Positions 18,942-56,827 of a stretch of 64,000 nucleotides of DNA are shown here, piece after piece (position 1 is the first letter of the stretch; each line of letters starts with the position of its first letter). This stretch comes from Hymenopellis radicata (lineage: Eukaryota > Basidiomycota > Agaricomycetes > Agaricales > Physalacriaceae): positions 59,229-123,228 of the forward strand of contig JADNRX010000151.1 of NCBI GenBank assembly GCA_015501595.1. The letters run 5' to 3'. The notes below the pieces were generated by a model. It worked only from the letters and a program-made list of their open reading frames with translations. It searched no databases and was not told where the DNA came from. A program made the position numbers and the translations under genes.

Positions 18942-20192
18942 ATGTCTTCTCACTCCAGTGGGCATCCCCACCTCGTATACCCGACACCTCCATCGACGGC
19001 CTCTACTGGCAGAAGTCGTCGGACGGCGGGCGACAATCATCCATACACAGGCACGCCGCCTATCATACCACACCTTTCATCTTCCTTCAGTCCGCCACCT
19101 ACAAGCAGAGTCGCAGAACCAAATGTCATGCACTATCCCTCACTGAGCACATCGTCAACACCCTCGCATACGAGCTCCCAACCATATATTAGCAGCAGCT
19201 CTTTGGGTCGAGCTGTCATTCCACTCCCGTCTGGTGGTTCACCTCCCGTTGGACGGGCCTCTATTCCATCAAGCGCTCATGGAAGCGCCGGTGGACCGCG
19301 CGCGCAGGTAAACTTCGCGCCCGCGCCGGAACGACGTCGTGCACACGAGTCGTCTGCAAGAACTCTTGGGGCAACACAGTCTCTTCACCCCGTTGTTCCT
19401 CATCGACATCTTCCTGCCTCGTGGCGTACGACCCAGAAATCTCCCTCACGTCCGAGGAAGCAGCATATACGCAGCACTCCGTGCCAACTTCTGAATCACG
19501 TATTTTCCTCTAACTCGGTAGGAGCCCATCACACTCTGGGCCCGCCTTCCCTCCACCACGAACTCCTTCGCAAAGCCCGCTTCAACAGCCCAGACGGTAC
19601 TACCACCCGCTTCGCATGTCTCCGATGGGACATGCGTTTCCCGCCCTCACACTCATTCGGTCGGGATCGATGTCGGTACTCCGTCTTGCATTGCAGCAAC
19701 GCACTAGCACCTATCTTTACGCTTTACCGGCCCGACTACTACGCAAACACTTTCACCATCCAGCCTTCGACCCAGCTGTTGAAACTGAAGTCGAGCGACA
19801 ATACGGTCCAGCGTCTCCTGAACGTGAGCCCGCTTGTGATCAAATGGGAGCGAGGCACAGTGCTCACTGTGCAGGTGCTCTTGAAGAAGCTATTCGAGTA
19901 TCTTAATACGCCTCTTTCATCTGTGGAGAGGCGGAGGCTTGTCCATCCCGCAGATGACGTTCATTTACAGAGAACATGTGCAAGGAGGGTGCACGATGTT
20001 GAGATGGCAGCGCTGAGGTATGGACAGAGTTTGCCGAAGAATTTGGCGGAGACGTATAGGGTTGATTTGCTGGGTGTTAATTATGGTTTCTATGGGTTCG
20101 AGTTGAAGTATGACTCGAAGACGCAGGTGGAGCTTGTTTTGAGTGTTCGAAGCTATGATACGAACATGGCCATTATGAGAACTAGAGATTAG
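18942..20192 (+). CDS. DUF6699-type protein
   Basis: A single open frame of 416 residues with a good TATA box upstream. The first ~200 residues are low-complexity Ser/Pro/Thr (typical disordered leader). The C-terminal ~170 residues match the pattern of DUF6699, a domain common in Agaricomycetes: WDMRFPPS, then a beta-rich VSPLVIKWERGTVLTVQVLL, a helical FEYLNTPLSSVERRR and the ending YRVDLLGVNYGFYGFEL. The function of this domain is not known. I see no intron that is required, although a branch-like CTAAC followed by GGTAG near 19515 could mark an unused or alternative one. It lies between F-box copies but is unrelated to them. Confidence 0.75.
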   Translation: MSSHSSGHPHLVYPTPPSTASTGRSRRTAGDNHPYTGTPPIIPHLSSSFSPPPTSRVAEPNVMHYPSLSTSSTPSHTSSQPYISSSSLGRAVIPLPSGGSPPVGRASIPSSAHGSAGGPRAQVNFAPAPERRRAHESSARTLGATQSLHPVVPHRHLPASWRTTQKSPSRPRKQHIRSTPCQLLNHVFSSNSVGAHHTLGPPSLHHELLRKARFNSPDGTTTRFACLRWDMRFPPSHSFGRDRCRYSVLHCSNALAPIFTLYRPDYYANTFTIQPSTQLLKLKSSDNTVQRLLNVSPLVIKWERGTVLTVQVLLKKLFEYLNTPLSSVERRRLVHPADDVHLQRTCARRVHDVEMAALRYGQSLPKNLAETYRVDLLGVNYGFYGFELKYDSKTQVELVLSVRSYDTNMAIMRTRD

Positions 20193-20337
20193 ATTGTCCT
20201 TGTCCGTTTATTACACCGGTAACTCTTCGTAGAAGTATCATTGTATACTGTCAGATACAAAGGAGCAGAAAGCGTAACAAAGCCCTGAGCAGATACTGAA
20301 CGATGAGCGTCAAAGGTCTTCCTCTGAACGACCTCTA

Positions 20338-22657
20338 TCAGTTAGACATTGTTCCGTCAGCGCCATCGACGACGCTCACATCCGCATTAGCGATACGTTC
20401 CTGGATATCGGAGGGCATATCATTAGAACTTCCTATGATAGAATCTCTATCAACAAACTCGCCCTCGAGGAAGCGCGCCAATCGTTCGAATTCTCTGGCG
20501 AGATCCTCCTCGGAAGCCTTGAAGCTAGCGCGATCGAAATCTATAATGAAGACTTCGCCGTGTCCATTGTACATCATGTTCCAAGAGCGCAGATCACGAT
20601 GAAGGACACCTGCCGAGTGAATGTTCTTGAGGGTCTTCTTCAGAGACAACCTGAAAAGCTCGTTAGTGACTGCCTTTACATTAGAAACCGACGTGCTTCT
20701 CAGTAGCAGAGAACTTGATCTTCCTGTCACCGTCCATGCGCCGACCGAGGGGATTTCCGACATTGTGCATGACCAGAGCGCCGAGCCCACGGGTGTCATC
20801 CTGATAATAGCCGAAGACATATGGTATGCCGGTAACGCCGGCGGCCTGGAGGTGGCAGTACACGTCGTATTCGTGGCGGAGAGACATGAGGGTCTCTCTG
20901 GTGTCGGCTATTTTAGCAACCAAACGGCTACACGGCACCCTCTCATGGCCTGGTCCCAATACTGCTGTATACGCTTTCCCCGTCGCGCCGCGCCCTAGTT
21001 TGGCAGTAAGGATCAAGGGAAGGCAGTTCTTCGCTTTGTAGATTTTGGAACGGGGATAGTCTGGTGAGAGAAGGACCTCTGGCGTGGGGGAGTTGTACGT
21101 TCCGTATCGAATATACAGCGCGAGTACAGGATGCGTCTTGAAGTATTTATGTGTTCGCTGCAGTCAAATATGTTAGAATGGCGTGTTAACGCAAGCAGTA
21201 GACGTACCAGGCGTAAATCTTTCGGGACCTTCTTCTTCTCGTCCTTGGCGTCGCGTATCAGATCATGTAGTCGTGATGAAGGGCGCTAATTTGAAGTTAA
21301 CCATCTACCTGAACAGCAAAGTGAGAATTCGCACAGAAGCGGGTGGAGAACTTGGTGCTGCAGTGCGACGACGTTTGGATGGTGACTCTTCTGAAAGATG
21401 GTCGCCGCTTCGTTTTCTAGAGCTGTTAGAGCCTTCTGAAGGACTCTGCTCGTCCGGTGGTGGCGTACTGAATGAGCTCACACGTTCAAAGACGTCATGG
21501 AATATGCACAGATGCATACCAAGCATCAGCTTACTATAGAACGAATAAGGATCACCGACATCAACAATAGGCGTCAAGTAAAGCGTTTGGGTCTGCCTGT
21601 GGCGGATACCGATTCGGAGCAGATTTCCACAATCAAAGAGGATAACAGAAACATCATAGCGGACGGCTTTAAACCACGCCTAACAGGATTTCAGGATGCA
21701 AGTTCATGACGGTTTAAGAAATCTCACCCTTTGAAGAAGATCTCTCGCGGAAGGCGGACGTCGAGGCGGCGCTGGACGAATATCTTTCGGCCTGAAGTGC
21801 GTTGGCGCCAGTTGTTTAGCGCCTGAAGCCTCAGACGGCAGGTCTTTATGTCGAGAATTATGTGGTCTTTTCGACGTACGAAGTGCGGATGTCGTTGGGG
21901 GAGCGGTTTCGGGTAAGTGCCATAATGGGTTTTCGGCATCCGGGGGACGTACGGCGCTGGGCGTAGGAGGGTGTCCTGCTGGGTACGAATTAACAAGCCA
22001 AGGGAAGTCGACAATTTGATCGTCCGCATCAGGAGCAGGAACGAGCTCATCCATCTCTTCCAAGCACCATTCGCCATTCGGGCAGAGAAGCATTCCCAGT
22101 GCGAATACTGGAAACTGATCCATGATGGGTCGAATTCGTTCCTGCGATGTAGGAGAGAATCCCCCGAAGTCCTTTTCAGCGTAAGGCATCGTTTTCAGGA
22201 CAAAATCCTCATCGTGGAATGGCGTATTGCGATTGGTGTGCGGATATGGGTTTCGCTGCCAACCAACGATCCGGTCCATGTAGGGGTCGTTTGGGTGTAT
22301 AATGATGCCAGAGACAAGCTGCAACGACGCCGATGCAATCCCAGCCGTGTAGGGATTCCGGACGTCCTGTGTCTTGTAGTTGTCGTCGCTTTTTGGATAG
22401 GGCATGCGGGAGAAATGGTACATTGCATCCTCGAAAGCCAGTTGAGCTGCGACAGGGAAGAGAGTATCGACAGAGGTGAAGATATCGTCAATGAGGGACG
22501 GCAGGACACAAATACGCTTTAAGATGAGATTTTCGTCCAGGTGCGTGTCGGGAAAGTGCAGGAATGATTCCGGTGGAGGGAAAGGCGGGTCGCGGAGGGC
22601 ATACGGAGGTGGAATGAAACTAAAGAACTCTTGTGCGCAGGTCTCTTCGGGTGGCAT
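20338..22657 (-). CDS. Atypical protein kinase with long N-terminal region
   Basis: Five exons: 22657-21728, 21679-21335, 21285-21208, 21157-20697 and 20650-20338. Phases add up to 708 residues. Introns 1-3 are GT-AG; intron 4 (20696-20651) fits only as GC-AG. The first ~430 residues are a Pro-rich and unknown region, with a basic SKRRRT patch that may be nuclear. The kinase part begins with a glycine loop (LGRGATGKAY), a VAK lysine (LVAKIADTRE) and a central-lobe VHN-type hinge (LVMHNVGNPL). The catalytic loop is HRDLRSWNMM, but the metal-binding DFG is DFD (IIDFDRAS). The shape, with a short C-lobe, matches the large Agaricomycete families of small atypical kinases. Substrate and role are unknown. 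It is convergent with the DUF6699-type gene, 145 bp apart. Confidence 0.78.
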
Positions 22658-24361
22658 ACTGGATTGTGGCGGTAGTTGGTTAAGGGGTGATGGTTGGCAT
22701 CAAAGGACCATTCAACCCAATTTAGGCAGCGTGACCATCAACCTCCGTGATGGTCCATTGTAGCACAACTGACCTGGAGTGCCAGGAGTGGCCAGGACCA
22801 CTTTAAAAGGCCTATTAGTATTTGCCCGTAAGCGCCATGATCAAGAGGAAACGTGATCGCGTGCCATCTTTATTTGACCATGTATGTCTACTACTTCCTC
22901 TCTTGCACCACGATGAGCTCGACCGACGACGATAATGTCCAGCATTGACGTCCTCCACCATGATGGCGCCCCATGCACATCGAGTCGAACGCTCTGTTCG
23001 GCGACGTTCATTCTATTGACCAGCATACACGCCCGGAGACTCTTGACATGGGCGATATTGGCAGCGGAACATAAGTAAAGAGGATTCGTCAGTCATCTAG
23101 GCGTACGTGAGGTTTTTTTTTTTTCATTTCTATTATGTGGTCGTCTTACCGTTGTACGACTAGTCCCGCTTGCGCCGCAAGATGACTCGCTTTCTTTCCT
23201 TGGCTGTCGGCCGGTGCTTTCTGCCCATCAACCGCGTTCTCAAAAGGCGCGATAGGTGCCTTCTTTTGTGTATTCGCACCACGATGTGCGCTGCCCCGCA
23301 TAATGCCCGACGCACCCGCTACGGTCAGCTCTGCATGTGGTAGACGAGATGGGACGGCAGTCACACTGCGCAGGCGTTGTGCTCGTTGGAGGTCAAGGTA
23401 TTCACTTCCTTGGTTCCTTGTGTCCTGGTCTCACTATCCAATCAGTATATCCAACGATCTTTGGCGCGCTAATGCCCTTGCTTTTGTACGGCACAGCTCC
23501 TTCTCCGGCGATAGCATGATGCTAATGGACGAGTCGCCAGTGGACCTATCGTCTTCCTCGTTCTCCATATCGATGTCGTAACTTCCGTGCCCCAGCACAC
23601 ATTCCAACTACTCTTCGACTTCGAGCCCAATCCTTACGCGGCTACCACCTTTACCTCCCGCGCCGACATTTGTCGTGAAGGCGCCGCCCCAACACGCTCC
23701 ATACATGCGCGTGTACTTGCCCGCCTTACTCCTCGAGAGTCGTTCCGGTATAACGGGCGCTGAATGGCTTGCCGTAGAGACAAATGGTTACCCATTTGGT
23801 TCTACAAGGTTCGAAGAAGAAGGGTTTGAATACGGCTTTAGTACTTGGACATAGGCACGCCCAGCCAACGTGCATCGAATTACAGGACGTTATTAATTGC
23901 TACGTTCAAAGAGCCTTCTCATTTTCCCGTTTCCACCTTTCCTATACGCTTTTCGTCTTATTCTTCTACTACTACTGCAAGGACTATTATGTATCGCCTT
24001 TGTACAGGCTTTCGGGTTTTCACGATTTCCTGATTTATTTACACTTTTTATTTCGTTTCAAAAACACTTCCTAGCGTTCATGTCATTCTATATTTTAATT
24101 AGTCGTCCAGGCTCTGCGCTCAACGTTCATCTCTCCTCAACGCAACCGCGTGTTCAGAGTCCATTTCGCTATCACAAGGTGCGTGTCTCAATTGTCTAGA
24201 CTTGTTGTACTGAAGCTATTGAAAGCGGGTGCCATCCACGCGATAGTAGCGGCGCGGCTGTATGTGTTACAGTCGCGGCAAGCGCGATCTTGTGGCGGTG
24301 AAACAAGATCAGCCTTAGATTTCACATGGACGGCTACTGTTTCTCAGCCTCCTTGTACATT
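22658..24361. other. Long spacer with decayed repeats, no supported gene
   Basis: Contains a T12 run near 23110 and short open frames without domain signal. GTGATCGCGTGCC with CACCACGATGAGC (about 22852-22920) resembles blocks near 31270, 36760 and 45650. The end, from about 24318 (CACATGGACGGCTACTG), is the F-box promoter border, with the GAGACTT palindrome lost. Confidence 0.5.
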
Positions 24362-30845: not shown

Positions 30846-32522
30846 ATACCGAGGGGGACACTTCATTGAGGGAGAGAATATGCAAACAGCTCTCAGACTG
30901 TTTTTCAGCATTTTGTCACTGTCTGATATACTTCTAATGTCATTGATATCCGAATCCAACTTGGTCTAATTCTTTGACTATTTGTGCATGCACTCTTACC
31001 TTTTCTTCGCCCTTTTCTTGACTATGCTTCGTTGCCTAGTAACGACGGCGTTAGTGGGTTCATGTAGCCGTGTTCATGGTAAAGAGTTCATTGGAAGGTG
31101 AACTAGTGGTGAACTACTAGTCGCCAAGGGCCTGTCGTTTCATTAGCAGGAGCCGCATAGTGTTCGAAGGAACGCACACTGCTTCCCGAGCGCATGTAGG
31201 ACAATCTAAAGTGGTCCACGCTCCTCCAAAGGCTTAAGAATGCATCTGTGTAGAGAGCGATGAGCCCGTGATCGCGTTTAATTGTTTGACTGTGTGTGGC
31301 AAAGCAGTCCTCCTCATTCCCCACCACGATGAGCGCGGCGGCGCGTAATGCTCTCATCGCTAGCGCGCACGACGACGACGACGACCCAGCTACTAAGACA
31401 CTTGAATCGGCTCGCGCTGCTGCTTCTCCGGGCTTTCCCAATCCCCATCGCCCTCGTCGGGACCAGGCATGGGCGACGTTGAGGACAACCAAAGCGTAGC
31501 CTCCAATCATCTTCGCTGCTTCGACTATACCCTGTCTGTGTCTCCGAGACCAGCGTACGCGCCTTGAACAAGGCTCCGACTCCATCGGCCACGCGCATCG
31601 TGCACGACATATTCGCTTCATTCAACCCCATCCATCACCTGGCCTCTCTATGCACGATGTAGCGCTGGTTTCACATCGTACGCGTCTTGTCCATCAAGGC
31701 GCCTTGTATGCCCTGGTAGATCTTGCTTTTACGTCCATTTTGTCTACTTAGCATCATGTTTTAGAGCAAGCCCAAGACTACGTCTACGAAAAGTCAGCCG
31801 ATTCAAACATCTTCAACTGTCGACCTGGTGCGTCCTTCCGTCCATCACCACTTTGTTGATATCTCATTCTGTATTGGATTCAGCCCCTACAGCCGTGAAA
31901 CTGTAAAACTACTCGCCAGTTCGATATGGCTCATCTGGTCCACAAAGTCGTCGCGCTGCCAGCTCCCGCGATGTCGAGACACCAAGCACTCCCCTTGTCC
32001 CCCGTATCGCCACTAGTGCCTTGGTCGGCTACTTTGGAGGAAGGGATTTGGACGTACGATGGAGGACATCACTGCCCTCAATATTCCCCACACCGACAGG
32101 GGGACCATCCGCGCGATAGATTAAATGCCGGAGTGGCACTAGGTCCTGCCGTCGATGATGAGTCCCGAGCGACTAGGACGAGAAGCGACGTGCGAATCCG
32201 CTGTACGACGCGACCGCGTACGGTGATGGAGTTGTCTTCTACTATGCTTGGGTTCAACGGCTCTTGATCGCGATATCGAGACGGAGAAACAAAATACGGG
32301 ACCTTTGGTGGTATGGGTCTGCGATGTAATGTTTCTGAACGCCTTCTTTGGTTTTGGTTTAGAAGCCGGACGTCTCGGGGCGTTAATTCGGACTAATGAG
32401 ACTTTTCAAGTCTTACAATGTCGTAGTGGCTTCGATCTCGTGCGGTGCGCACACGACCCCTATAACAAGTTTTGTTTATAAAGAACGATTTCGACCGTTC
32501 TCTCTCGATGATCACTTCTATC
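30846..32522. repeat. Spacer carrying copy A of a ~1.2 kb segmental duplication
   Basis: About 31106-32290 is nearly identical to 36593-37765. It includes the open start MSAAARNALIASAHDDDDD (31328 onward), which soon loses frame, so I do not call a gene. The upstream F-box module GAAGCCGGACGTCTCGGGG lies near 32362. Confidence 0.75.
32398..32483 (+). promoter_or_regulatory. Composite promoter of F-box copy 7
   Basis: GAGACTTTTCAAGTCTT (32398-32414), AATGTCG (32417-32423), GTGCGCAC (32445-32452), TATA box TTTATAAAG (32475-32483). The ATG is at 32508 or 32523. Confidence 0.7.
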
Positions 32523-33658
32523 ATGGCTCTCAACATCGTCCGCAAGCTCATCAATAAACTCACTCACACCCACCGCTCCTCTGCTAGTACAGGTCCATTC
32601 GGGCTTGTACCGCAGGAGCTCCTTGATCTTATCATTGCCTACCTGGCCGACGACAAAGCCACCCTTTTATCGTGTGCACTCGTTCACCCCACTTGGAACA
32701 GCATCAGCCGCCATCATCTCCCGTCTCTCAGTCTTGTCATCTCCTCTCCATCCCGTGCCAAGGAGCTCAGAAAGCTATTACGCTCATCGCGTGAGACGCT
32801 TTCCTCGTCTATAACCGGCATTACGCTCGTCGGCGACATACCCTTTGACGACTTCCTCGCGAACGGAAAATCTCCCCATGCGCGGTCCTACAGCAAGTTA
32901 CTCCACGTCCTTAAAGCCAAGCATGTCATGCTTCGCTCGGGGGTGGTCGAGAATGAGCCATCGCTCGTTGGACTCTTCGCCCAGTATTTCCCGGATCTTC
33001 CCAGTGTTAAGGTTATCTGCGCATCATACCAGGACATCACGAGCTTCATGCGCGCGCTTTCCGGCTCTTTCCCGCGCCTCGCCGAACTCAATATTGAGCT
33101 TGCATCGGGTGGATTGGATTTGCCGGACGCGTCGCTATCTGGATTGCACCAGCTCAGACTGGTAATGCCGTGCTTACGCATCCTGCGCGTGGTCGGGTGG
33201 AATAATGATCTCGTGCGCTGGTTGGGGGATAACGCCGCGGGGACGCTGGAGAGTCTGGAGTTGGAGAGCGCCAGCGTTCTGTCGACATGTCGTGCCGGAG
33301 AAGCGACTCCGCTTATTCAAAGGAATATGGAAACTTTGAAGGATGTCAGGCTGAGCTTTGTGAAACGCAATGGTTAGTCTGGTTTCCTTCTTTCTATGCG
33401 CGAGACGTACTCATCTGTTTTGTAGTGGCTTTCGATCTATCGGGCCTAACGCGTTTGGAAAATTTGGAGGTTACGAGTGGGATGGGTGATATGGAGATGG
33501 CGCTGAATGGGTGGCGGCTGCCGAGGTCCTTGAGAAGGGTATATATACGGGACGCGGTTTGTGTGCTGACTAGGCGTTATAGTGCGCTGTGTGGGGATGA
33601 TACGGATGAGGGTATTATTTTGGAGGGAGCAACTTTGCGGAGGGCTTTGCAGATGTAA
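32523..33658 (+). CDS. F-box-like/LRR family copy 7
   Basis: Intact reference copy: exon 1 32523-33372, intron 33373-33425 (GTTAGT...TGTAG, phase 1), exon 2 33426-33658, 360 residues. F-box-like GLVPQELLDLIIAYLADD, then SCALVHPTW and SRHHL near residues 20-60. LRR-like repeats run from about residue 150 (YQDITSFMRALSGSFPRL; CLRILRVVGWNNDL; LTRLENLEVTSGMGDM). The C-terminus is EGIILEGATLRRALQM. An in-frame ATG at 32508 would add five residues. If the F-box fold is real, the protein would bind Skp1 in a ubiquitin ligase and recruit targets through its repeats (inference). Confidence 0.85.
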
Positions 33659-34498
33659 CCGCAAGCCCTTGACTTTCCTGTAACCGATCGTCATACCATA
33701 CTTTCAATCTTTATTACGGTTTCACGTTCTGTTCCATTCCTCGTCAAATATTGTGTGCGTGTCCTTGCGCAAGATGATCTAGTCCGAGGCTTTAAGAATA
33801 AGCCAGGAGTTCATTTGAAAACTTGGGTGGCTTGGCACGGCGTCACATAAGTACAATCGTTAAATGCTTGTAGTATATAAGGATAGTAAACTACTCGGCC
33901 CTTGAGAGTCGAGACCATAACCGTAAATCGCCAACTTCAGACTCGGCGATCTTACTTCTTTGGATTCAGTGCTCCTTTTCAAAAACGGAGTCCAATACCA
34001 ACCCGCCCACTACGAATTGTCCGCCGAATCTATCCCACTGCCATTCAGGGAATCCTTCATTATGTCTGCCCTTTCATAGAGCAGTTATCTTATGCCGTCG
34101 GGCGAAGCAATGATCTATTGCGCCACACTGCTTTTCATGCTAGCTCTACGGACACTGTAGCTGAGAGAAGAGTACGACTAGGCCCCGACATGCCGTAACT
34201 CGCTACAGATGTTGGGGTACGGTGAGTCACGTCGTGCGATTCGAATTCCACCCAACAGAAGTTCTCCCGTAGGATCTCCGGGAGATATCAAGATGCCACA
34301 CTACGCGGCGTATCTTTTGAAGATAGTGCGGATTATGGTTTAGAGCTCGTCGTATCCCATCTACCTTTCCATTGACCGTGTCACAACGTTAATGTGCCGC
34401 CCGACATTTTTCAAACCCTATCGCTAACTTCCTTGTGGGTGGTGTAAACCACGAGGGCTAGACGAGACCCATGTTGTCATCAACACCAACCAATACTA
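33659..34498. other. Intergenic between convergent genes, nothing recognised
   Basis: No repeats of the F-box unit type and no coding signal seen. Confidence 0.45.
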
Positions 34499-36452
34499 CT
34501 AAGCAATGTAACTCGATGGATCAGGATTTAGCGAGGACATCCACATTATGCAATTCTCTGCTTCAAGCCCCGCCCAAGGAACTCGCCACTGGATAATGAC
34601 CATGCCTTCCCTAGACAAGCGGAGGTACTTCTCATCCGAGTCTTCGTCCAGCGGAAAAACATGAACTTTCCTTGGTACATGTGAAAGATCAATGACATAG
34701 CCCACATCACGAAGAGCATATGCTGGGTGGCGATCCACAAACTCCTGCTGCAACCGGGCATACCACTCCTTTCGGTCGCCCTTCTTCACCTCGTAGAGAA
34801 GCATCGACTCGATGATGAGTAACTCCCAACCTCGATGTTCTGGTAAGTCTGGTAATGTAGGTTCTGCGCCTGGCATGCTGTTTTCAGCGATGCTATGACA
34901 CGCAAAGGAACTGCTTGCTTACGAGCAAACTTCTTGGCATAAGTTGAGCATTTTGTGCGGTGAGTCTGCCAATCGTTTTTCTGACACTGCGGCGAGCAAT
35001 ACAAGACCTGCCGGCAACCTGTACAAGCTCTTCTGGCACCTAGATTCCCGCACTGTAAAGATATTAGCGTGGCAAAGATGTCCGCCTTCGTTGACCCACT
35101 TACCGTTGACAGAGAACAATCTCGAAAGACATCCTTGTCTATGACGTTCATGAAGGGGCTCAGGTTCGACATCTCGCTTTGAAGTAAGTCCCAAGCCTCC
35201 GCGACACAGCGGACAGATGACCGCCAGCCCTCCGGAATTACTCTTTTGATGGAGGTCTGAATCCGATAAAATATAGTAGCGTGCACGGCATATATCGATA
35301 TCATTTTGAGGATCTCCGTGATACAGGAAGCGCGGCGTGTGTACAGTTCGAAGGTATGGAAAAGGGTGTCCATTTTCCACAGATAATCGATGATGCGCAT
35401 CTTGAGCGCATCAGCAATCCATCGGCGGCCTTCAGTCGCGAGAAAAGTGCTGATATAACCCAGACACGTACACAGAAGGTTTAGGACGGTGTCCGCAACG
35501 CCTATGTTCCGGGCAGTTTGCGAGGCGCAACGACGAAGAAGGGTTTTTATGATATCCATCGTCCAATACAAGGAGCGTCCGGCCAGAAGAGTGCGACGAA
35601 ATACAGGAGATAGGTTACTGACGCAATCCAGGAAGCCAAATGTCATTGCGAATCTGTGACTGCTGCGCAGAGGATCGTCTGCAAAGGAGATGACGATGGA
35701 CTCTACACATGATTCCATGATGCGACGAGGGAGTGTATCGAAGAATTCAATCGTCAAAGAGTGTCTTTCGGTTTTGGGCAAAAGGTAGCAATCGCTTAGA
35801 GATAAAGGGAGACGCGAAAAGATCTGAAAAACGTCACGATATTCGGGAACCGCGGCAGTATGCACCCATAATCGTAGAATAAGTTTCAAGAACGAAGGCG
35901 AGCTGATGCGCGCGCGGAAGTATCCACGTGAGTTGGGGAGGCGGGGATTGTCGAATGCGACGGGGTCCGCCAAACCGAGCAAGAGCCCTTCAACATGCTG
36001 TAGTACCTTCTCGACATGCTCGATATCATCGGACGCCGGCCCCTCAATATCGATGATATTCTCGAACAACCGCCGGATCCATTTCGAGACGACAGGCCAT
36101 AGCTCTGTCATGGCCACGAATCGCTTGTTCATCCAGGGAACGGACAGCGATGGCTGTTTAATGACCATCCCAAGCACATAGACACAAGTGGCTTGGACAC
36201 TGAAAGTATCCGATATGCGCGCAAATGAGGGCTCGCGTTGAAGCCAGAACTTGATGACATCAAATACGTGTGTATACGCGTCGGGGGATGATGCAACGAT
36301 TCCAGTAAGACTTCTGAGAGCCTTGATACAGGTGGTCGGATCAGAGGAGGTCGCGAGATTCTGCAGTGCGATCGTTAAACATGATGATACTGATAGAAGG
36401 AGACGCGAACCTTTAGTGTGGATATAGAATCGCGACTGAGGGGGCTAGGCAT
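34499..36452 (-). CDS. MYND-type zinc finger protein
   Basis: Four exons: 36452-36411, 36360-35104, 35052-34923 and 34863-34499. Introns of 50, 51 and 59 nt join in consistent phases, giving 597 residues. The first ~420 residues are helical with many Leu/Ile, as in the armadillo-like regions of fungal MYND proteins. The zinc finger is formed across the second intron, bringing CSLST next to CGN, then RRACTGC, YCSPQC, NDW and THRTKC. The C-terminal ~120 residues (LLYEVKKGDRKEWYARL) form a tail typical of Agaricomycete MYND families. MYND fingers bind proteins; the partner here is unknown. The third acceptor was chosen because the nearer one would end the protein early. Confidence 0.82.
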
Positions 36453-38022
36453 TGTTGCAAGGGGCGATGGAGAGTAGCGACTAAGCTGCGTACTACGCTA
36501 CTAGCACTACTGCTGCATGATGGCAAGAAGACTGAACAGATAAGCATTACGTCATCGCTCTGCCCGACGTGTCGCCGACGAGTGCAGACTCAGGTGAACT
36601 AGTCGAGTAGTCGCCGCCAAGGCCTGTCGTTTCATTAGCAGGAGCCGCATAGTGTTCGAAGGAACGCACACTGCTTCCCGAGCGCATGTAGGACAATCTG
36701 AAGTGGTCCACGCTCCTCCAAGGCTTAAGAATGCATCTGTGTAGAGAGCGATGAGCCCGTGATCGCGTTTAATTGTTTGACTGTGTGTGGCAAAGCAGTC
36801 CTCCTCATTCCCCACCACGATGAGCGCGGCGGCGCGTAATGCTCTCATCGCTAGCGCGCACGACGACGACGACGACCCAGCTACCAAGACACTTGAATCG
36901 GTTGGAAGAGCTTGCGCTGCAACTTCCCTGGGCTTTCCCAATCCCCATCGCCCTCGTCGGCAGGCATGGGCGACGGAACCAAACCGTAGCCTCCAATCAT
37001 CTTCGCTGCTTCGACTATACCCTGTCTGTGTCTCCGAGACCAGTGTACGCTTTTCAAAGTCATTCAGGAGTCGCCTTGAACAAGGCTCCGACTCCATCGG
37101 CCACGCGCATCGTGCACGACACATATACGCTTCATTCAACCCCATCCATCACCGGGCTCTCTATGCACGATGTAGCGCTGGTTTTACATCGTACGCGTCT
37201 TGTCCATCAAGGCGGCTTGTTATGCCCTGGTAGATTTTGCTTTTACGTCCATTTTGTCTACTTAGCATCATTTTTTTAGAGCAAGCCCAAGACTACGTCT
37301 ACGAAAAGTCAGCCGATTCAAACATCCTCAACCGTCAGCCTAGTGCGTCCTTCCGTCCATCACCACTTTGTTGAAATCTCATTCTGTATTGGATTTAGAC
37401 CCTACATCTGCATGACTGCCGTAAACTCATCTGGTCCACAAAGTCGTCGCGCTTCCAGCTCCCGCGACGTCGAGACACCAAGCACTTCCCTTGTCCCCCA
37501 TATCGCCACTAGTGCCTTGGTCGGCTACTTTGGAGGAAGGGATCTGGGCGCACGATGGACGAATCACTGCCGAACCAGACCTCAATATTCCCCACCGACA
37601 GCGGGACTATCCACGCGATAGATTAAATGCCAGAGTGGAGTCCCGAGCGAGTAGGACGACGTGCAAGTCCGCAGTACGACGCGACCGCGTACAGTGATGG
37701 AGTTGTCTTCTACTATGCTTGGGTTCAAAAGCTCTTGATCGCGATATCGAGACGGAGAAACAGGGCCAGTGTTTATAGAAGTTCACACGTCTCGGATTTT
37801 TCGTGTTCTAATGGTAGGAGCTCTTTTCGTGACTCGTCCTGATGTATTGTTTCTAAATGTCTTCTTTGGTTTAGTCGCGGGACGTCTCGGGGATACAATC
37901 ACCGACGTACGAGGATGATGTCTATCTATAGACGCGATTCCGCGCTCTGCGCCCGAGAGGGCTGTGCAAACCGCGTCACGACTAGTACTTATATGGTGCA
38001 CCACTCCAAAGTCCAACTAACC
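36453..38022. repeat. Spacer with copy B of the ~1.2 kb duplication, leading into an oxidase gene
   Basis: 36593-37765 duplicates 31106-32290. It is followed by F-box-type upstream modules (TGGTAGGAGCTCTTTTCGTG near 37812; CGCGGGACGTCTCGGGG near 37876). After the modules comes the berberine-bridge oxidase at 38023 instead of an F-box copy. No gene lies inside the spacer. Confidence 0.75.
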
Positions 38023-40394
38023 ATGATATCTACCCTTCTTCTGACGCTCATCTCCCTAAATCATGTGGACGCAGCCCCCGCCTCCAAGTTTGCCTCTCTA
38101 AACGCGACTTTGGGTGGTCGTCTCGGCGAAACACGTCCCATTTCAGAACCGTGCTACCAGGATAGCACCTTGAACGCGTGCAAGTACGTTCAGGAGAACT
38201 ATGTCAACTCGACGTTCCGTGGAGACGTCTACGGGGCGACGATGTATGTGAGTAGCCTGTTCGTTCTCCCTTGTCGTGTGCCTATGCTTACTAGTGTCTT
38301 AAGCCTGTCTGGGAAACGTGTTTTGCTACCGACCAAGGTTGCGTTCTCAACTACAAGGATCCTGCAGATCCCTACGCCTTGGACGACTCAAAAGTGCGAG
38401 ATAGGGAGCCTTTCTTCGGCATATGTAAGTGGATTCCAGCTCACTATCGAAAAATTTCCTCATTCCTCTTGAAAGCTCGCCGTTGAAAGTGCTGAAGACG
38501 TCCAGCACGCGTTCGCATTCGCCAATTCTACTGGGACTCTGCTTTCAATCAAAAACACTGGTCATGACTTCATCGGGCGCTCTGTTTTGAAGAACTCTTT
38601 GGCCCTCTGGGTACGGTTGCTTCTCTTGCAATTTTTTCAGAGACTTACGAATCTGTACAGACACATAATCTGAACAATGTTCGTACGCACTCTTGGTATC
38701 TTCGAGCTGAGCGCTAAACATTCCGATAGATTTCATATAATCCGACGTTCGTTCCGGAAGGCGGGCAGGCTGATGTCAATTACACTGCAATTACTCTCGG
38801 GGTATGTTTCTTCCATCTCTCAACGTGTTCTTGGACTGATTTCTATCTCTGAAGGCCGGTGCTCAATGGTACGACGTGTACAAATTTGCCGATGAACATA
38901 ATGTCACCGTTGTGGGCGGGTACCATCCCACCGTTGGTGCAAGTGGCGGCTGGCTTATGGTATTACCCCCCTCTGATTTTCCATTACTAGCGGCACTGAC
39001 TCATTTCAAGGGCGCAGGATATAGTGTCCTGACACCTACCCTTGGGCTCGGTGTTGACCGTGCAGTAAGATACACTTGTTTCTTAAGGCTCTTCTGCTTA
39101 CGCACGGTTTCCTACCAGCTACAATTCAAGATCGTGACCCTAGATGGTGTCTACCGAACCGCCAACGAGTACCAGAATACGGACCTTTTCTGGGCCTTGC
39201 GAGGCGGAGGAGGTGGGACCTTTGGTGTGGTCCTCGAGTCGACGACGCTTGCCAGTCCACAGCTGACGCTTCAGGTGTAAGTTTATTGAAGCCAGAGTCT
39301 CAAGTCAATGTAATGCTCATATGCACCAGGGCGTCGGTATCGTTCAATAGCACCGAGGAAACGGCACGGAACTTCCTCAAGTTACTTATTGACAATGGCG
39401 TAGAATGGAGTGAGGCTGGTTGGGGCGGACACATGTACCAAAACAGCTTCATCAGCGTTAATCCGCTCCTCACACACGAAGAAGCCCTGGCGTCAATGAA
39501 GAACGCATCTGATTATGCACACACGCTCAATGGCAGCGTCGTGATCGAGGAACTGCCGTCGTTCTTTGCCTTCTTCGAAAAATATGTCCCTGCAGCTGAA
39601 GCGGTCAGTCTACAAGCCGTACTGTACGTGTCCTGCGTTTGCTGATCTTCATCTCCTGCCAGGTCGTCGGAGTACACCCCGTTCTGGGGACCCGACTCAT
39701 ACCCACGAGTATCTTCTCCAACGAAACTGCAAAGGCGCAGCTTCTGGACGCATTTGCCGCCATGGTCCCTTTTGCAACTGTCGATCCGCAAATCAACGCC
39801 GTCACGCCCCTCCTATACAATCATACGGAAGGCGCTACTAGTGTACTTCCGGCTTGGAGAAAGGCTTTGTGGCAGGTACACGACCTTTCCTTTTCCCGAG
39901 GAGAAAGAAAAGTTATCGCTTCCGCATAGGTTGTCTTCGCGGCGGAGACCTCGTGGAATGCCACTGAAGCGGAGAAGCAGGAGGTCTTCAGCTTGGTGGA
40001 TAGCCTTACCCAGCCTCTGAGAGATGTCGCCCCAGACTCTGGGGCTTACATGGTACGACCTTTCATGTTCTCCGCCCAAGACAATGCTAATGTTGAGCCG
40101 TAGAATGAGGTCTTCATCTACGAGCCAGACTTCGAGACCGCGTTCTGGGGTGATAACTACCCCCGTTTGTTGGCTCTCAAGCATAAATAGTGAGCGGGGT
40201 TCAAGTGTTTGGTTCGAGAATCAGGACTGATTGGCTTTTTTTTCTCCAGTGATCCTAATGGCTTGCTGGATTGCTGGCACTGCGGTACGCTCCACTGACG
40301 CTGTTGTTGATTGCATTTCTCATATGCCATTATAGTTGGATGGCAGGGCGCTCAGGATGAGCGATACAGCTGTTACCCGGACTTTTCTTCTTAA
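38023..40394 (+). CDS. Secreted berberine-bridge-type FAD oxidoreductase, one frameshift
   Basis: A signal peptide (MISTLLLTLISLNHVDA) starts a flavoprotein of the PCMH/BBE type, which oxidises carbohydrates or alkaloid-like substrates via covalent FAD. Fourteen exons with 50-60 nt introns: 38023-38247, 38304-38424, 38476-38610, 38661-38678 (18 nt), 38730-38801, 38855-38959, 39011-39064, 39119-39276, 39330-39603, 39663-39875, 39930-40052, 40104-40189, 40250-40284 and 40336-40394. Key parts: SIKNTGHDFIGRS, where the His is the usual FAD attachment; VVGGYHPTVGASGGW; LRGGGGGTFGVVLES; and the BBE tail DPNGLLDCWHC ending WQGAQ. Exon 2 has one extra A in an AAAA run near 38390, breaking the frame. 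Otherwise it encodes about 558 residues. The break may be an assembly indel. The upstream DNA is of F-box type. Confidence 0.85.
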
Positions 40395-42910: not shown

Positions 42911-43621
42911 ATGGACCATTCCATTTCGACATCCGAGTCGCTGTCCACGGCACCGCTACCACAGGAATTACTCGACGCCTGCGTCGATGCATTGGCCGCC
43001 GACCATGATCTCACCAATAGGACACTCATGGCGTGTGCTGCTGCCAGTCGACGGCTCCGCTATCGCGCACAGCACCATCTCTTCGCCACGGTGTCCATTT
43101 CGCAGTCACCCAGCCGTCATGATTGGCACCGCACGCCAGCGCGCTTACTTTCACTCCTCAAATCCAGCCCACATCTTGCCACGCATATACGCACACTGCG
43201 CATCCTGGGCTCGCGATTGCAGTACTTGTACGGCGGAGAGGAGCAGTGTTTGGCGTTTCACGCGCTCCTCGACGTTATCCCCCTTCTTCCAAATCTCACC
43301 GGGCTGTCCATGTCCTTTGTTGGGAACAAGTGGTTCCTCTCTGTGTTTCCCTCGAATGTGTTTGCGTGTCATCGTATAGCGCGTGTTGCGCTGAGGGAAT
43401 GTGTCGTGCATTTTGATGGGGGACGGTTGGAGCGGTTTCTGAATCGCTTTCCGGAGTTGCGGGAGGTGGAGGCGGTGAACTGTGTTTATCGTGGTGTTAG
43501 TGAGGTGGATGGGGATGGGTGTTGGGGGGAGGACTGGATGGTGTGCTTGGAAAGGGACTGGTGTGGTCGGTTTGAGCGGCTTTTGTTGAGGAATGTGAGG
43601 GAGGAGGTTGGTGATCGTTGA
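42911..43621 (+). CDS. Second, unrelated F-box-like protein
   Basis: Single exon, 236 residues. An F-box-like start (PLPQELLDACVDALAADHDL, then CAAASRRLRYRAQHHLF) is followed by an LRR-like region (IRTLRILGSRL; LLPNLTGLSMSF; ELREVEAVNCVYR). It differs in sequence and intron structure from the tandem family and has its own TATA box at 42862. It resembles the general Agaricomycete F-box class that lists leucine-rich lines after an RRLR motif. It is short, but the stop at 43619-43621 seems natural. No sign of decay. Confidence 0.68.
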   Translation: MDHSISTSESLSTAPLPQELLDACVDALAADHDLTNRTLMACAAASRRLRYRAQHHLFATVSISQSPSRHDWHRTPARLLSLLKSSPHLATHIRTLRILGSRLQYLYGGEEQCLAFHALLDVIPLLPNLTGLSMSFVGNKWFLSVFPSNVFACHRIARVALRECVVHFDGGRLERFLNRFPELREVEAVNCVYRGVSEVDGDGCWGEDWMVCLERDWCGRFERLLLRNVREEVGDR

Positions 43622-45411: not shown

Positions 45412-47392
45412 TGCTCAGTATAATTGTCATGTTTTCGAGTAAACGGAATGAGACCTTATGTACAACTTCATTTGTGAAAGAGGCAGATGTTTAGGAGGAA
45501 GATTTTTCAGAACTGTATGGCCGCCTGGAAGCGAACCAAAGGTCATAGCTATTTGTTAAATGTTTAAATAGTAAGGAAACGCAGGATGCAGTCTGCATTC
45601 GCCCAAGACGACTCCAAAGCCATCTTCGTTGCCTTGCGTCATTGTGGCACGTGATCGCGTCCTCCTTTTTCTCTTGCCACCATGATCACTGGAGAACAAA
45701 CTTGAATTTCTCGATGCCGTTGCAAGAGCAACTCACAGGAATCGCCACACCTCTTGGCTACTGTCACGGACTGGTGCAACGAAGCTGACGGACAAAGCTG
45801 AACAAATTCCACTCGACGGAATACAAAGCGCCCGGCTCTTCACTTTTTTCTAATGTGTATTTCAACCGATATTGGCAACTTTTCCTTCTTTCTGCGAGCT
45901 AGCTGGTTTACGCTCCATTCATACTCGAAAAAAAACTCTGTGAGCGCATTCGGAATTTCCTCTTTTCACTCAGGTCGGATCTTCGCACTGTTCCCCGGAG
46001 GGTATCGTCTACTAAATCGTGACCTCCATGTCTTGGGAGTAAAGTCCATGAACGGAGATTGTCGTCCGTTCAGGTAAACTATCATCGGAAACGACTCAAT
46101 CAATGTTAACTAGAGAGCATCAATCACCATGCCACAAAACTTGCGCGGCGAACCGAGGGCACGCATCATCGTCCATGCGACTCTAGAGGCATGTCTTGCT
46201 AGGCTAGTCAAGATCTCGAGAGCTTGAAAGAGACTAGAGGCTCAAACGATCGACAAATATCAAACATCTGAGTTGGTGGGCATTCCTCTCTTACTTACTA
46301 TCGTTTGTGGTCTATAGCAAGATCTCGTGACAAACCTGTCGACGCGTCAGTTGTCCCATCGTTCATGGCATGACTTTGACAGTCTTCGCTGAATGGAGAA
46401 ACTCTGTCACGATGGTCCTTCGCCCGGTTAGTGCTTAGTTTGTTATTCCTGTGTTTTATTGCTGAGGCTTGATCCAGGCTACTCCTGCCCAGCATCCTTG
46501 TTTGTCCATATTCCAAGAGACCGGCCAAAGATGAGCGCTACCGAGATCTTAAGCGTGTTGAAGCTGTATGCCGATAATGTCCCGGAGTCAATTGAAGCGA
46601 CCTCTCGTCGGTTCATCAGGTGGTCGTCCATCGAACGTACGGGGGAGCTCGAGAAGATTGATTGATGTAACGACTCAAATGAAGTCCTGTCTGCTGAGAG
46701 ATTTTTCGCGCGGTACAGTACAGGATGGGAATCTACTGCACAACAGCTGCCCCATGTCGTGCGACCGATTCCATATCTGGTCGGCCTTGACTTCCTTCAG
46801 CCAGCTTGATATGATTCATCCGGTTAACAAAACCGTCGCGCTCCTCGATATCGAAACACCAGGTGCTCCCCTCGTGCCCAGTGCTTTGGTCGTTTCCTTT
46901 GGATGAACGTTATTGGACGCACTGCACGATATCATCGCGCAGATGGAGCAGAGGTGCCGAGGTCCTTGGAAATGCACCTGTATCGGGTTTTTTGGTAGGA
47001 GCTCTTTTCGTCTGTGATGTATTGTTTCTAAATGTCCTCTTTGGTTGGTTCAGCGTGCGGGACGTCTTGGGGGTACGTACGGCGTGGGAGTGAGAGGTTT
47101 CTTGAAACGGACAGGTTGCGGATGCTCGCAGTGAGGTTATGGTTACCGATCATGAAAAGCATGTGGCCTTGCATGTGGCGTTGTGCACGTTGGCCACTAT
47201 GTGCACATGCTGCAGAAGGTTCACTTGGAGCTTGATCAGCGATAAGCAACGCACTTTCACTTAAATTAACGACTCTCTCATGTCTGTTCGAGTGAGTCCT
47301 TGCTCCCCATCCCCTTGGTCCTCCCTCTCTCGAGTCTGAGCGTCGTTGCCCTTCCTGCCTATCGATTATTCCGTCGTAGCGCTCTACCCACT
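45412..47392. repeat. Spacer with direct repeat B and F-box-type upstream modules
   Basis: 46321-46645 duplicates 43856-44170. From about 46700 the DNA is of F-box-unit type: TTTTTCGCGCGGTACAGTAC, ATATCTGGTCGGCC, TGGTAGGAGCTCTTTTCGTC (about 46995), and a decayed promoter (GTGAGAGGTTTCTTGAAACG, about 47090; TGTGCACATGC, about 47199). The PLC-like gene follows instead of an F-box copy. Short frame 46531-46665 (MSATEILSVLKLYADN) is not supported as a gene. Confidence 0.7.
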
Positions 47393-48474
47393 ATGATTGC
47401 CCCACTATTCTTGCTAGCGCTCTCGAGCGTTCTCTCGGCCATTCCAGTCAAAAGGTGTGTTGCGATCTACAACCCAACCGCATAAATGCTAACTGCATCT
47501 CGCCACGCAGGGCGCAGCCTACCGACTGGATGCAAGCCAACATCGGCACCTTGGGCTCCCGTCCCCTCAGGCACATCTGCATCCCAGGAAGCCACGACGC
47601 GGGAATGTCCGAGATCAATGGCGGCACCGCATTCTCTGATGCTGCCAACACCCAGACTCAGACCCTCAGCATAGGCGGCCAGCTCACAGCCGGTTCACGG
47701 TACTTCGACATTCGGCCCGTCATCACAGCTGGGACATATTCGACCGGCCACTACTCCGACATTACTGCGATCGACAGCTGGCAGGGGAGCAACGGACAAA
47801 GCATCGCCGACGTGATCAGCGACATCAACTCGTTTACGAGCGCGAACAAAGAGTTAGTCATCATCAATTTGTCCCATGCGTACGACACCGACGCTGGGAA
47901 CTCGGATTATCCTATATTCACCCAGGGCCAGTGGGACGCGCTGTTCGACCAGCTCACGGGTATCAACCACCTCTACGTCGACCCGAATCCGACCGACGTC
48001 GACCCGAATCCGACCGCCGTCGATTTGTCCACAGTGACACTTTCCACTTTCATCGCTTCCTCGCCCGCTGTCGTTGTCATCGTCCAGCCCGACGATACCA
48101 TCGATCTTGGCGACTACGCCTCCCAGGGCTTCTACCACTACTCGCAGCTCAACGCGTACAACGAGTATGCGGACACCAGTACGCTGAGCACGATGGAGAG
48201 CGACCAGCTCGCAAAGATGGCTGCGCAGCGGGGCACGCCCGATCAGAGCTACTTCCTTCTCAGCTGGACGCTTACGCAGAGCACCCTAGACGTGCTCGGC
48301 TTTGGCGATTCGATTCTCGAACTCGCTGACAAGGCCGACCCTGCTCTGTATACCGCTCTGCCTCCCAAGCTGAGCACGAGCACATACCCGAACATCCTCT
48401 TCATCGACAACTTCCAGAATGATGGAAAGATGGTCGACCTTGCTATGACTATAAACACCAACTATGCGTCGTAG
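47393..48474 (+). CDS. Secreted PI-PLC X-domain-like protein
   Basis: Two exons: 47393-47454 and 47511-48474. The intron of 56 nt (GTGTGT...CGCAG) is phase 2, giving 341 residues. A signal peptide (MIAPLFLLALSSVLSAIP) precedes a PLC-X-like TIM barrel: the first catalytic-His motif is CIPGSHDAGMS, then RYFDIRPVI, with a second His in YSTGHYSD. Members of this extracellular group resemble bacterial PI-PLCs and are often of unknown substrate. A seven-residue repeat, VDPNPT(D/A), occurs twice (47980-48022). It lies between F-box-type promoter DNA and an orphan F-box exon in the same orientation, an unusual position discussed as a finding. Confidence 0.8.
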
Positions 48475-55630: not shown

Positions 55631-56827
55631 ATGGGAGGTTGTGCATCCAGAGAAAACCCGACAATGCAGGAAATCCGTGAACGTCTGGAGAGGGAGAGGG
55701 ACGCCGCGCAGAGATCCGCTGCTGAGAGTGCAGAACGTGCCCAAAGGGTCGAACGCGAAAGACAGGCCGCTGCGCAGCATGCGCGCCAATGTCAGGAGGA
55801 TGCTCGAAGGCGAGAGGAGGAGGCTCGACGAGCCCGCGAAAGGACGAAGGCAGCGGAGCGCGAAAAGCAGGCCTCTGACGAAAATGCACGCCGCTTCCAG
55901 CAGGAGGCAAACCAACGAGCCGAAGAAGCGCGGATAGCTCGCGAGAGGGCGGACAAGGCAGCTCAGGAGAAACGTGGAGCCGAGGAGCATGCACGCCGCT
56001 TCCGGGAGGAGGCAGAGCGGCAGAAGCAGGAGGCTCAGAAGGCACGCGACGACCTGAGGCGCGGAGCTCATCCCGACGTTTGGCCTACCCTAGAGCAGTT
56101 CGAGTCTACGAAGGAACGCTATGGCTACACGCCAGACATGGTCCATATTGCCATAGCCGGTATATCCGGCTGTGGGAAGTCCTCCCTCGTCAACTCCTTC
56201 CGCGGGCTGACCCCCAAGGACGCCAAGGCTGCCAAAACCGGTATCGTCGAGACGACGACGGAGGTTACCAGCTACCCTGACCCCGATTCCTCCAAGCCCA
56301 TCCTGTGGTTCGATGTTCCTGGCGCAGGAACCCTCAATGTCTCCGATTGGGAGTATTTCAACGACCAAGGGCTTTTCATATTCGACGCCATAGTCGTGGT
56401 GTTTGCAGACCGGTTCTGCGCCACCGACGTTGCGATACTCAAGGCGGCCAAGAAGTACTGCATCCCTGCATACATCGTCAGATCGAAGTCGGACCAGTAC
56501 ATCAGGAATATGATGGAAGAGGATGAAGATGAGGACGAGGACGAGGAAGTTCGTCTGGAGAGTGCATGCGTAGAATATGCAGAGACGACGCGGCGCAACG
56601 TTAAAGACAACCTTGCACGAGCTGGGCTCGCCGATCAAGACATTTTCCTCATTTCCAGGGCAGCGTTGTTGACAATCGTCGCGAAGAAGAGAAAGGCGCC
56701 CAATGCTGTTATTCTTGATGAAGCAAGATTGGTGAAAGAGATGGTTGGAGATGGAATCAGGCGTCGCTTCAGACAGACGTCTGCCTTGGCTTCGGTGTTG
56801 AGCCAGATCCGTAGTTTGACAAACTAG
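55631..56827 (+). CDS. IRG-like GTPase with N-terminal lipidation motif and coiled coil
   Basis: Single exon, 398 residues. The N-terminus MGGCASREN has the glycine-2 myristoylation context and a Cys-4 suitable for palmitoylation, pointing to membrane anchoring (inference). Residues about 12-145 are a charged coiled coil (repeats such as ERERQAAAQHARQ; ARRFREEAERQKQE). The C-terminal GTPase resembles immunity-related GTPases: G1 GISGCGKSS (177-185), a Thr-rich switch (GIVETTTEVTSY), G3 DVPGAG (228-233), G4 SKSD (285-288). A Glu/Asp run (DEDEDEDEE) follows G4. In animals, IRG proteins act at pathogen and autophagy membranes. Fungal relatives exist in Agaricomycetes, but their role is not known to me. 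No frame break. Confidence 0.82.
   Translation: MGGCASRENPTMQEIRERLERERDAAQRSAAESAERAQRVERERQAAAQHARQCQEDARRREEEARRARERTKAAEREKQASDENARRFQQEANQRAEEARIARERADKAAQEKRGAEEHARRFREEAERQKQEAQKARDDLRRGAHPDVWPTLEQFESTKERYGYTPDMVHIAIAGISGCGKSSLVNSFRGLTPKDAKAAKTGIVETTTEVTSYPDPDSSKPILWFDVPGAGTLNVSDWEYFNDQGLFIFDAIVVVFADRFCATDVAILKAAKKYCIPAYIVRSKSDQYIRNMMEEDEDEDEDEEVRLESACVEYAETTRRNVKDNLARAGLADQDIFLISRAALLTIVAKKRKAPNAVILDEARLVKEMVGDGIRRRFRQTSALASVLSQIRSLTN

Follow-up and report, generated by a model that had tools for sequence, protein, structure and literature searches.

Where DNA resembling the upstream region of F-box genes runs up to the gene of a secreted-type enzyme, has that gene come under an F-box promoter, or has a piece of F-box flank come to lie beside it? 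The question is raised by a 64,000-nucleotide stretch of the Hymenopellis radicata genome (the window), which is part of contig C465 and was compared with the genome searched (75.5 Mb, 1405 contigs). An earlier note, made from the letters of the window, had described near copies of a 1.2-kb spacer at 31106-32290 and 36593-37765, the first leading to an F-box gene and the second to an oxidase, and had read this arrangement as a secreted enzyme placed behind an F-box-type promoter cassette.

The duplication is real, and the coordinates given for it were right to about 10 bp (Table 1). Copies A and B form the highest-scoring repeat pair within the window (86.9% over 1240 columns); 1067 of 1127 aligned bases are identical (94.7%), with 37 transitions and 23 transversions, and the copies differ further by 18 indels of 1-24 bp. 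Copy A does lead to F-box copy 7, whose ATG lies at 32523 and which is the seventh of nine near-full F-box-like copies in the window (13685, in two frames, 15536, 17241, 24362, ~26967, 29781, 32523, 40543 and 50088); a weak tenth match lies at 42935. Of these copies only copy 7 was scanned from its ATG; its PF12937 score of 20.3 bits falls short of the Pfam cut-off (24.3). F-box copies 6 and 7 are identical at 920 of 1065 positions (86.4%), less than spacers A and B, so the spacer pair probably goes back to a separate, more recent event or to a conversion tract. Among the protein-ubiquitination genes in orthogroups that are specific to complex multicellularity, one published report lists F-box proteins (PMC8893723).

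Table 1. Features of the window around the duplicated spacer and the oxidase gene
Feature	Positions	Strand	Remarks
Spacer copy A	31096-32291	+	upstream of F-box copy 7; from repeat-pair alignment
F-box copy 7, core promoter	32397-32522	+	palindrome 32400-32412; two TATA-like boxes, -62 and -46; no equivalent before the oxidase
F-box copy 7, first exon	32523-33374	+	F-box-like by sequence
MYND-finger gene	34490-36477	-	between F-box 7 and spacer B
Spacer copy B	36592-37762	+	near copy of spacer A; from repeat-pair alignment
Left piece of spacer	36750-37042	+	also at C514 and C654, with no F-box gene in the downstream stretch covered
Middle piece of spacer	37147-37504	+	also at C535 and C591, with no F-box gene in the stretch covered
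Distal module of F-box upstream regions	37770-37919	+	17-mer core 37814-37830; intron-like GT...AG 37814-37874
Breakpoint, where similarity to F-box upstream DNA stops	37919-37920	+	from genome matches, query to 38100
Oxidase proximal region	37920-38022	+	103 bp; TATAT at -33
Secreted-type FAD-binding/BBE-domain oxidase	38023-40394	+	14 exons, the second not in one frame as assembled
Shorter module copy	46993-47076	+	upstream of PLC-like gene (ATG 47393)

The spacer query returned 29 rows of genome matches, and 16 stretches were enlarged. Downstream of twelve of the 16 lies F-box sequence that reads the same way, several of these copies being frame-changed or split, and there the right-hand part of the spacer travels with the F-box gene as a colinear unit. 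The other four (L030-L033) have no F-box downstream (tblastn, E up to 1; 2.3 to 4.7 kb downstream covered) and carry inner pieces only, with differing edges: the left piece is common to L030 and L032, the middle piece to L031 and L033. A stretch overlapping the latter piece, 37151-37561, precedes an F-box gene at C874 (L036), and a row on C291, outside the enlarged stretches, has an F-box core-promoter match 417 bp downstream. The leftmost ~0.48 kb (36592-37072) was found at no F-box locus besides copy A. Since this left part was not found at other F-box loci and the pieces lie at separate loci, the 1.2-kb spacer is composite and not one cassette.

L030 and L032 each also carry a copy of window 19243-22772 or of its end. 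This sequence of ~3.5 kb is repeated beside spacer fragments at C514 (83%), and its end lies beside spacer fragments at C654 as well (86%, cut by the limit of the stretch covered); at L030 a DUF7587 ORF follows further on. A protein gene within the spacer was considered and rejected. Two spacer ORFs scanned had no Pfam match, a 77-residue reading of the plus strand matches only A, B and the fragments at C514 and C654 and yields no intact gene, and translated matches are scattered over many frames of both strands, with no frame or strand standing out.

What decides how the oxidase is placed is the point at which similarity to F-box upstream DNA ends. Beyond 37763 copy B departs from copy A and follows other F-box upstream regions up to 37919; copy A has an internal deletion beyond the matching point, and the same deletion is present at L020. 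Several changes between L020 and copy A look like G-to-A when read by eye, such as a RIP- or methylation-like process would leave. When the query extended to 38100, the exact end of five matches (C661, C465:10.4 kb, C489 and two on C1251) was 37919, which is position -104 from the oxidase ATG (38023). The module and core-promoter matches abut, with no base between them, at C661, C489, C465:10.4 kb, C1251:84.6 kb and C696, and a gap of two bases separates them at C1251:65.7 kb; the module query of this search was itself cut at 37919, but the query to 38100 puts the end of five of these matches at the same base. At the five matched loci the junction is followed by TGAGACTTTTCAAGTCTC or a close variant, then by TATA-like boxes and the ATG. 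At the oxidase no F-box core promoter follows, though one is due directly after 37919.

The proximal region that stands in its place has no copy found elsewhere in the genome. A diverged F-box core promoter within it was also rejected, as comparison with five F-box core promoters gave no reliable similarity: shuffle p values were 0.034, 0.048, 0.17, 0.26 and 0.95, uncorrected, and the two lowest are both due to one 12-bp stretch that the region has in common with two of the five. All nine module-bearing F-box loci measured have a palindrome, GACTT-N(2-4)-AAGTC, and a TATA-like box, the latter mostly at -45/-46 and often also at -62 (at F-box 5, ~-37). Within 420 bp of the oxidase ATG the palindrome is absent, and no TATA-like box lies near -45, only TATAT at -33. 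In the window scan the palindrome precedes five of the nine F-box copies, a sixth match, at 1941, lying elsewhere; F-box 8 and the locus at C465:26.6 kb (L039b) also lack the exact palindrome, and no TATA-like box was found at either. An inverted repeat at the breakpoint (37919-37933, GTCTAT-CT-ATAGAC), near the place of the F-box palindrome, was discounted as evidence, a repeat with 6-bp arms being present in 8.4% of 2000 shuffles.

The earlier claim that copy B reaches modules equivalent to those of F-box genes (37795-37895) is borne out, in that F-box upstream DNA is present here from 37770, but it ends at 37919. The earlier interpretation is thus supported in part: F-box upstream DNA extends to -104 with a module at a comparable distance. 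An F-box promoter in front of the oxidase is not supported, since the core promoter is missing. Against its own reading the earlier note had set an oxidase promoter of independent origin with similarity ending far upstream; the core promoter does appear to belong to the oxidase, but the similarity breaks off close to it, which answers half of that condition.

A distal module of 110-150 bp is retained before the oxidase, and its core lies at -209 from the ATG, within the range of -186 to -237 at nine F-box loci (L029, L034, L035, L037, L038, L043, L044, F-box 5 and F-box 6), which have the core or a near match there and, in each case, the palindrome at -111 to -130. The 17-mer GTAGGAGCTCTTTTCGT has four exact copies in the window, one each upstream of F-box 5, F-box 6, the oxidase and the PLC-like gene, where 0.13 matches would be expected by chance at up to three mismatches. 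The module has an intron-like form, GT...CTAAAT...AG, in all four window copies. Genome-wide there are at least 13 module places, the oxidase's included. A search for other genes behind the same cassette, which the earlier note had proposed, thus leads to the oxidase and the PLC-like gene, and at the remaining 11 of the 13 an F-box gene lies downstream; both exceptions are in this window and both have secreted-type products. These 11 are made up of the nine loci above, a copy at C465:33.4 kb and a weak copy at C465:26.6 kb, the last with neither module core nor palindrome by strict patterns. At F-box 7 the module is degraded, and its core is missing from F-box 8 and L039a, so the module is not indispensable to F-box genes.

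The PLC-like gene (47393-48474) had been put forward, as a PLC-X enzyme, as a second secreted enzyme behind the cassette. It does have a module copy upstream, but the case is the weaker one: the copy is shorter and stands at -398, outside the F-box range. The gene has no Pfam match and is weakly similar to bacterial PI-specific phospholipase C structures (best E 0.0016). By eye, it has a hydrophobic N-terminus and a probable short intron.

As to the oxidase itself, the description as a 14-exon secreted FAD oxidase stands as far as the exon number and the hydrophobic N-terminus are concerned, in a model whose splice sites were chosen by hand, but exon 2 is not in one frame and the gene is interrupted as assembled. 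Midway through this exon (38304-38424) the frame shifts relative to six Mycena proteins (P0001-P0006) and one of Hymenopellis. Exons 3-14 are open, without a stop, which leaves either a sequencing error or a recent lesion. These exons score above the Pfam cut-offs for PF01565 and PF08031 (44.6 against 26.4 bits and 37.6 against 20.6 bits), the domains also found in fungal VAO/BBE-type oxidases, and their six best protein matches, 90-96% identical, are all named from Mycena species. In bicovalent flavoproteins the Cys of a GG-x-C-P-T-V-G stretch binds FAD. In this stretch the oxidase and seven aligned relatives have His, whereas MtVAO615 (6f72), the nearest solved structure by sequence, has Cys; an NTGHD stretch is common to the oxidase and MtVAO615, and the alcohol oxidase 6f74 ranks alongside. 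A genome-wide search for a second copy of the oxidase gave no close one. The longest other match has 65% DNA identity over 0.7 kb on C796, two shorter ones lie on C224, and 36 exon-level matches represent distant members of the FAD-binding family; none is close enough to serve as an empty-site control.

The identities along copy B are those of a mosaic history. Left of 37763 it is closest to A (93.8% over 37603-37763, where identity to L020, L011, L016 and L018 is 82-85% for the two copies and 83-85% for B), and in the module it is closest to other loci: 89-90% to L011, L016, L017, L018 and L021 (on C661, C489, C465 and C1251). Three more distant F-box loci, L025, F-box 5 and F-box 6, match the module of B at 81-88%. 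The block of F-box 7 and the MYND gene, which precedes spacer B, has an inverted copy at C465:5.5-15 kb (MYND part 96.9%) and is also found at C489, as far as covered (MYND 91%). At C465 the similarity of the block stops at 36568, 24 bp before the start of spacer B, and at the threshold used no further window sequence follows in C465:1-5500.

We consider it probable that spacer B is what remains of the 5' flank of an F-box unit, cut short and brought next to an oxidase gene already resident there by duplication together with ectopic recombination or gene conversion. This reading is supported by the F-box genes behind most module places, from the lack of a core promoter after the module at the oxidase, and from the mosaic make-up, the occurrence of the F-box 7 and MYND block elsewhere, and the lack of a close second oxidase or a gene in the spacer. 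The repeat-rich F-box cluster would have been the setting of the exchange; the F-box gene and its core promoter may never have been copied here or may have been deleted later, and the oxidase would be driven by a short core promoter of its own, with TATAT at -33. Spacer pieces at over a dozen places, four of them without an F-box gene found, might also suggest a mobile element that inserts ahead of genes, which we regard as very improbable: no terminal inverted repeats or target-site duplications were seen at the edges of A and B, in an alignment read by eye, and both the colinear travel with the F-box gene and the differing edges of the inner pieces speak against it. It is scarcely credible that the F-box flank was joined to the oxidase by the assembly. 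The region is highly repetitive and the frame change in exon 2 could be a sequencing error, but copy B has substitutions and indels of its own and continues, on one contig, into DNA without a close second copy.

Some observations do count against a mere remnant. The F-box-like distance of the module, the exact 17-mer in all four window copies and the position of both exceptions before secreted-type genes are how a working upstream element would look as well, and the palindrome is lacking at some F-box copies too. The oxidase and the PLC-like gene might therefore have been captured functionally, the distal module acting as an upstream activating element that places both under the F-box expression programme. 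We think this unlikely. The spacing and the recurrence of the 17-mer favour it, as does the identity of the module between B and three F-box loci (89-90%, against 83-84% in the adjoining flank), but this excess is not significant (Fisher p 0.13, 0.14 and 0.08), the core promoter of module-bearing F-box loci is missing, not all F-box genes need the module, the PLC-like copy lies too far upstream for the F-box range, and the oxidase frame is interrupted as assembled. It is quite improbable that an expanding fungal F-box family has, in this module, a portable upstream element whose action depends on distance, and that segmental duplication has dealt it to secreted enzyme genes and so linked their expression to that of the F-box genes; both exceptions lie inside one F-box array with dense F-box flanks and so say little for a general cassette. 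On the preferred reading of a truncated flank, the inherited module could still modulate the oxidase as an upstream element, and shared regulation of oxidase and F-box genes is possible.

The arrangement is reminiscent of the orphan 5' flanks known from tandem gene clusters, which likewise show colinear flank-plus-gene copies of different ages, mosaics and neighbours carried along, as the MYND gene is here; it differs in that the flank stops close to a different gene, 103 bp short of its start, and that this gene has the orientation of the flank. It also recalls promoter capture, or regulatory hijacking by duplication, where upstream DNA of a gene family similarly comes to lie directly before an unrelated gene, but here the core promoter was not transferred. 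In the literature on Mycena genomes, F-box expansion and promoter capture, searched by title, no title pointed to a cassette of this kind. If the module works on the oxidase, the locus would be a natural case of cluster duplication that rewires a neighbouring gene while the core promoter stays in place. For F-box-rich mushroom genomes in general, the breakpoint should be placed before upstream similarity is taken as shared regulation. Elsewhere in the window, an ORF at 55631-56827 has an IIGP-type (interferon-inducible GTPase) domain (E 6e-27).
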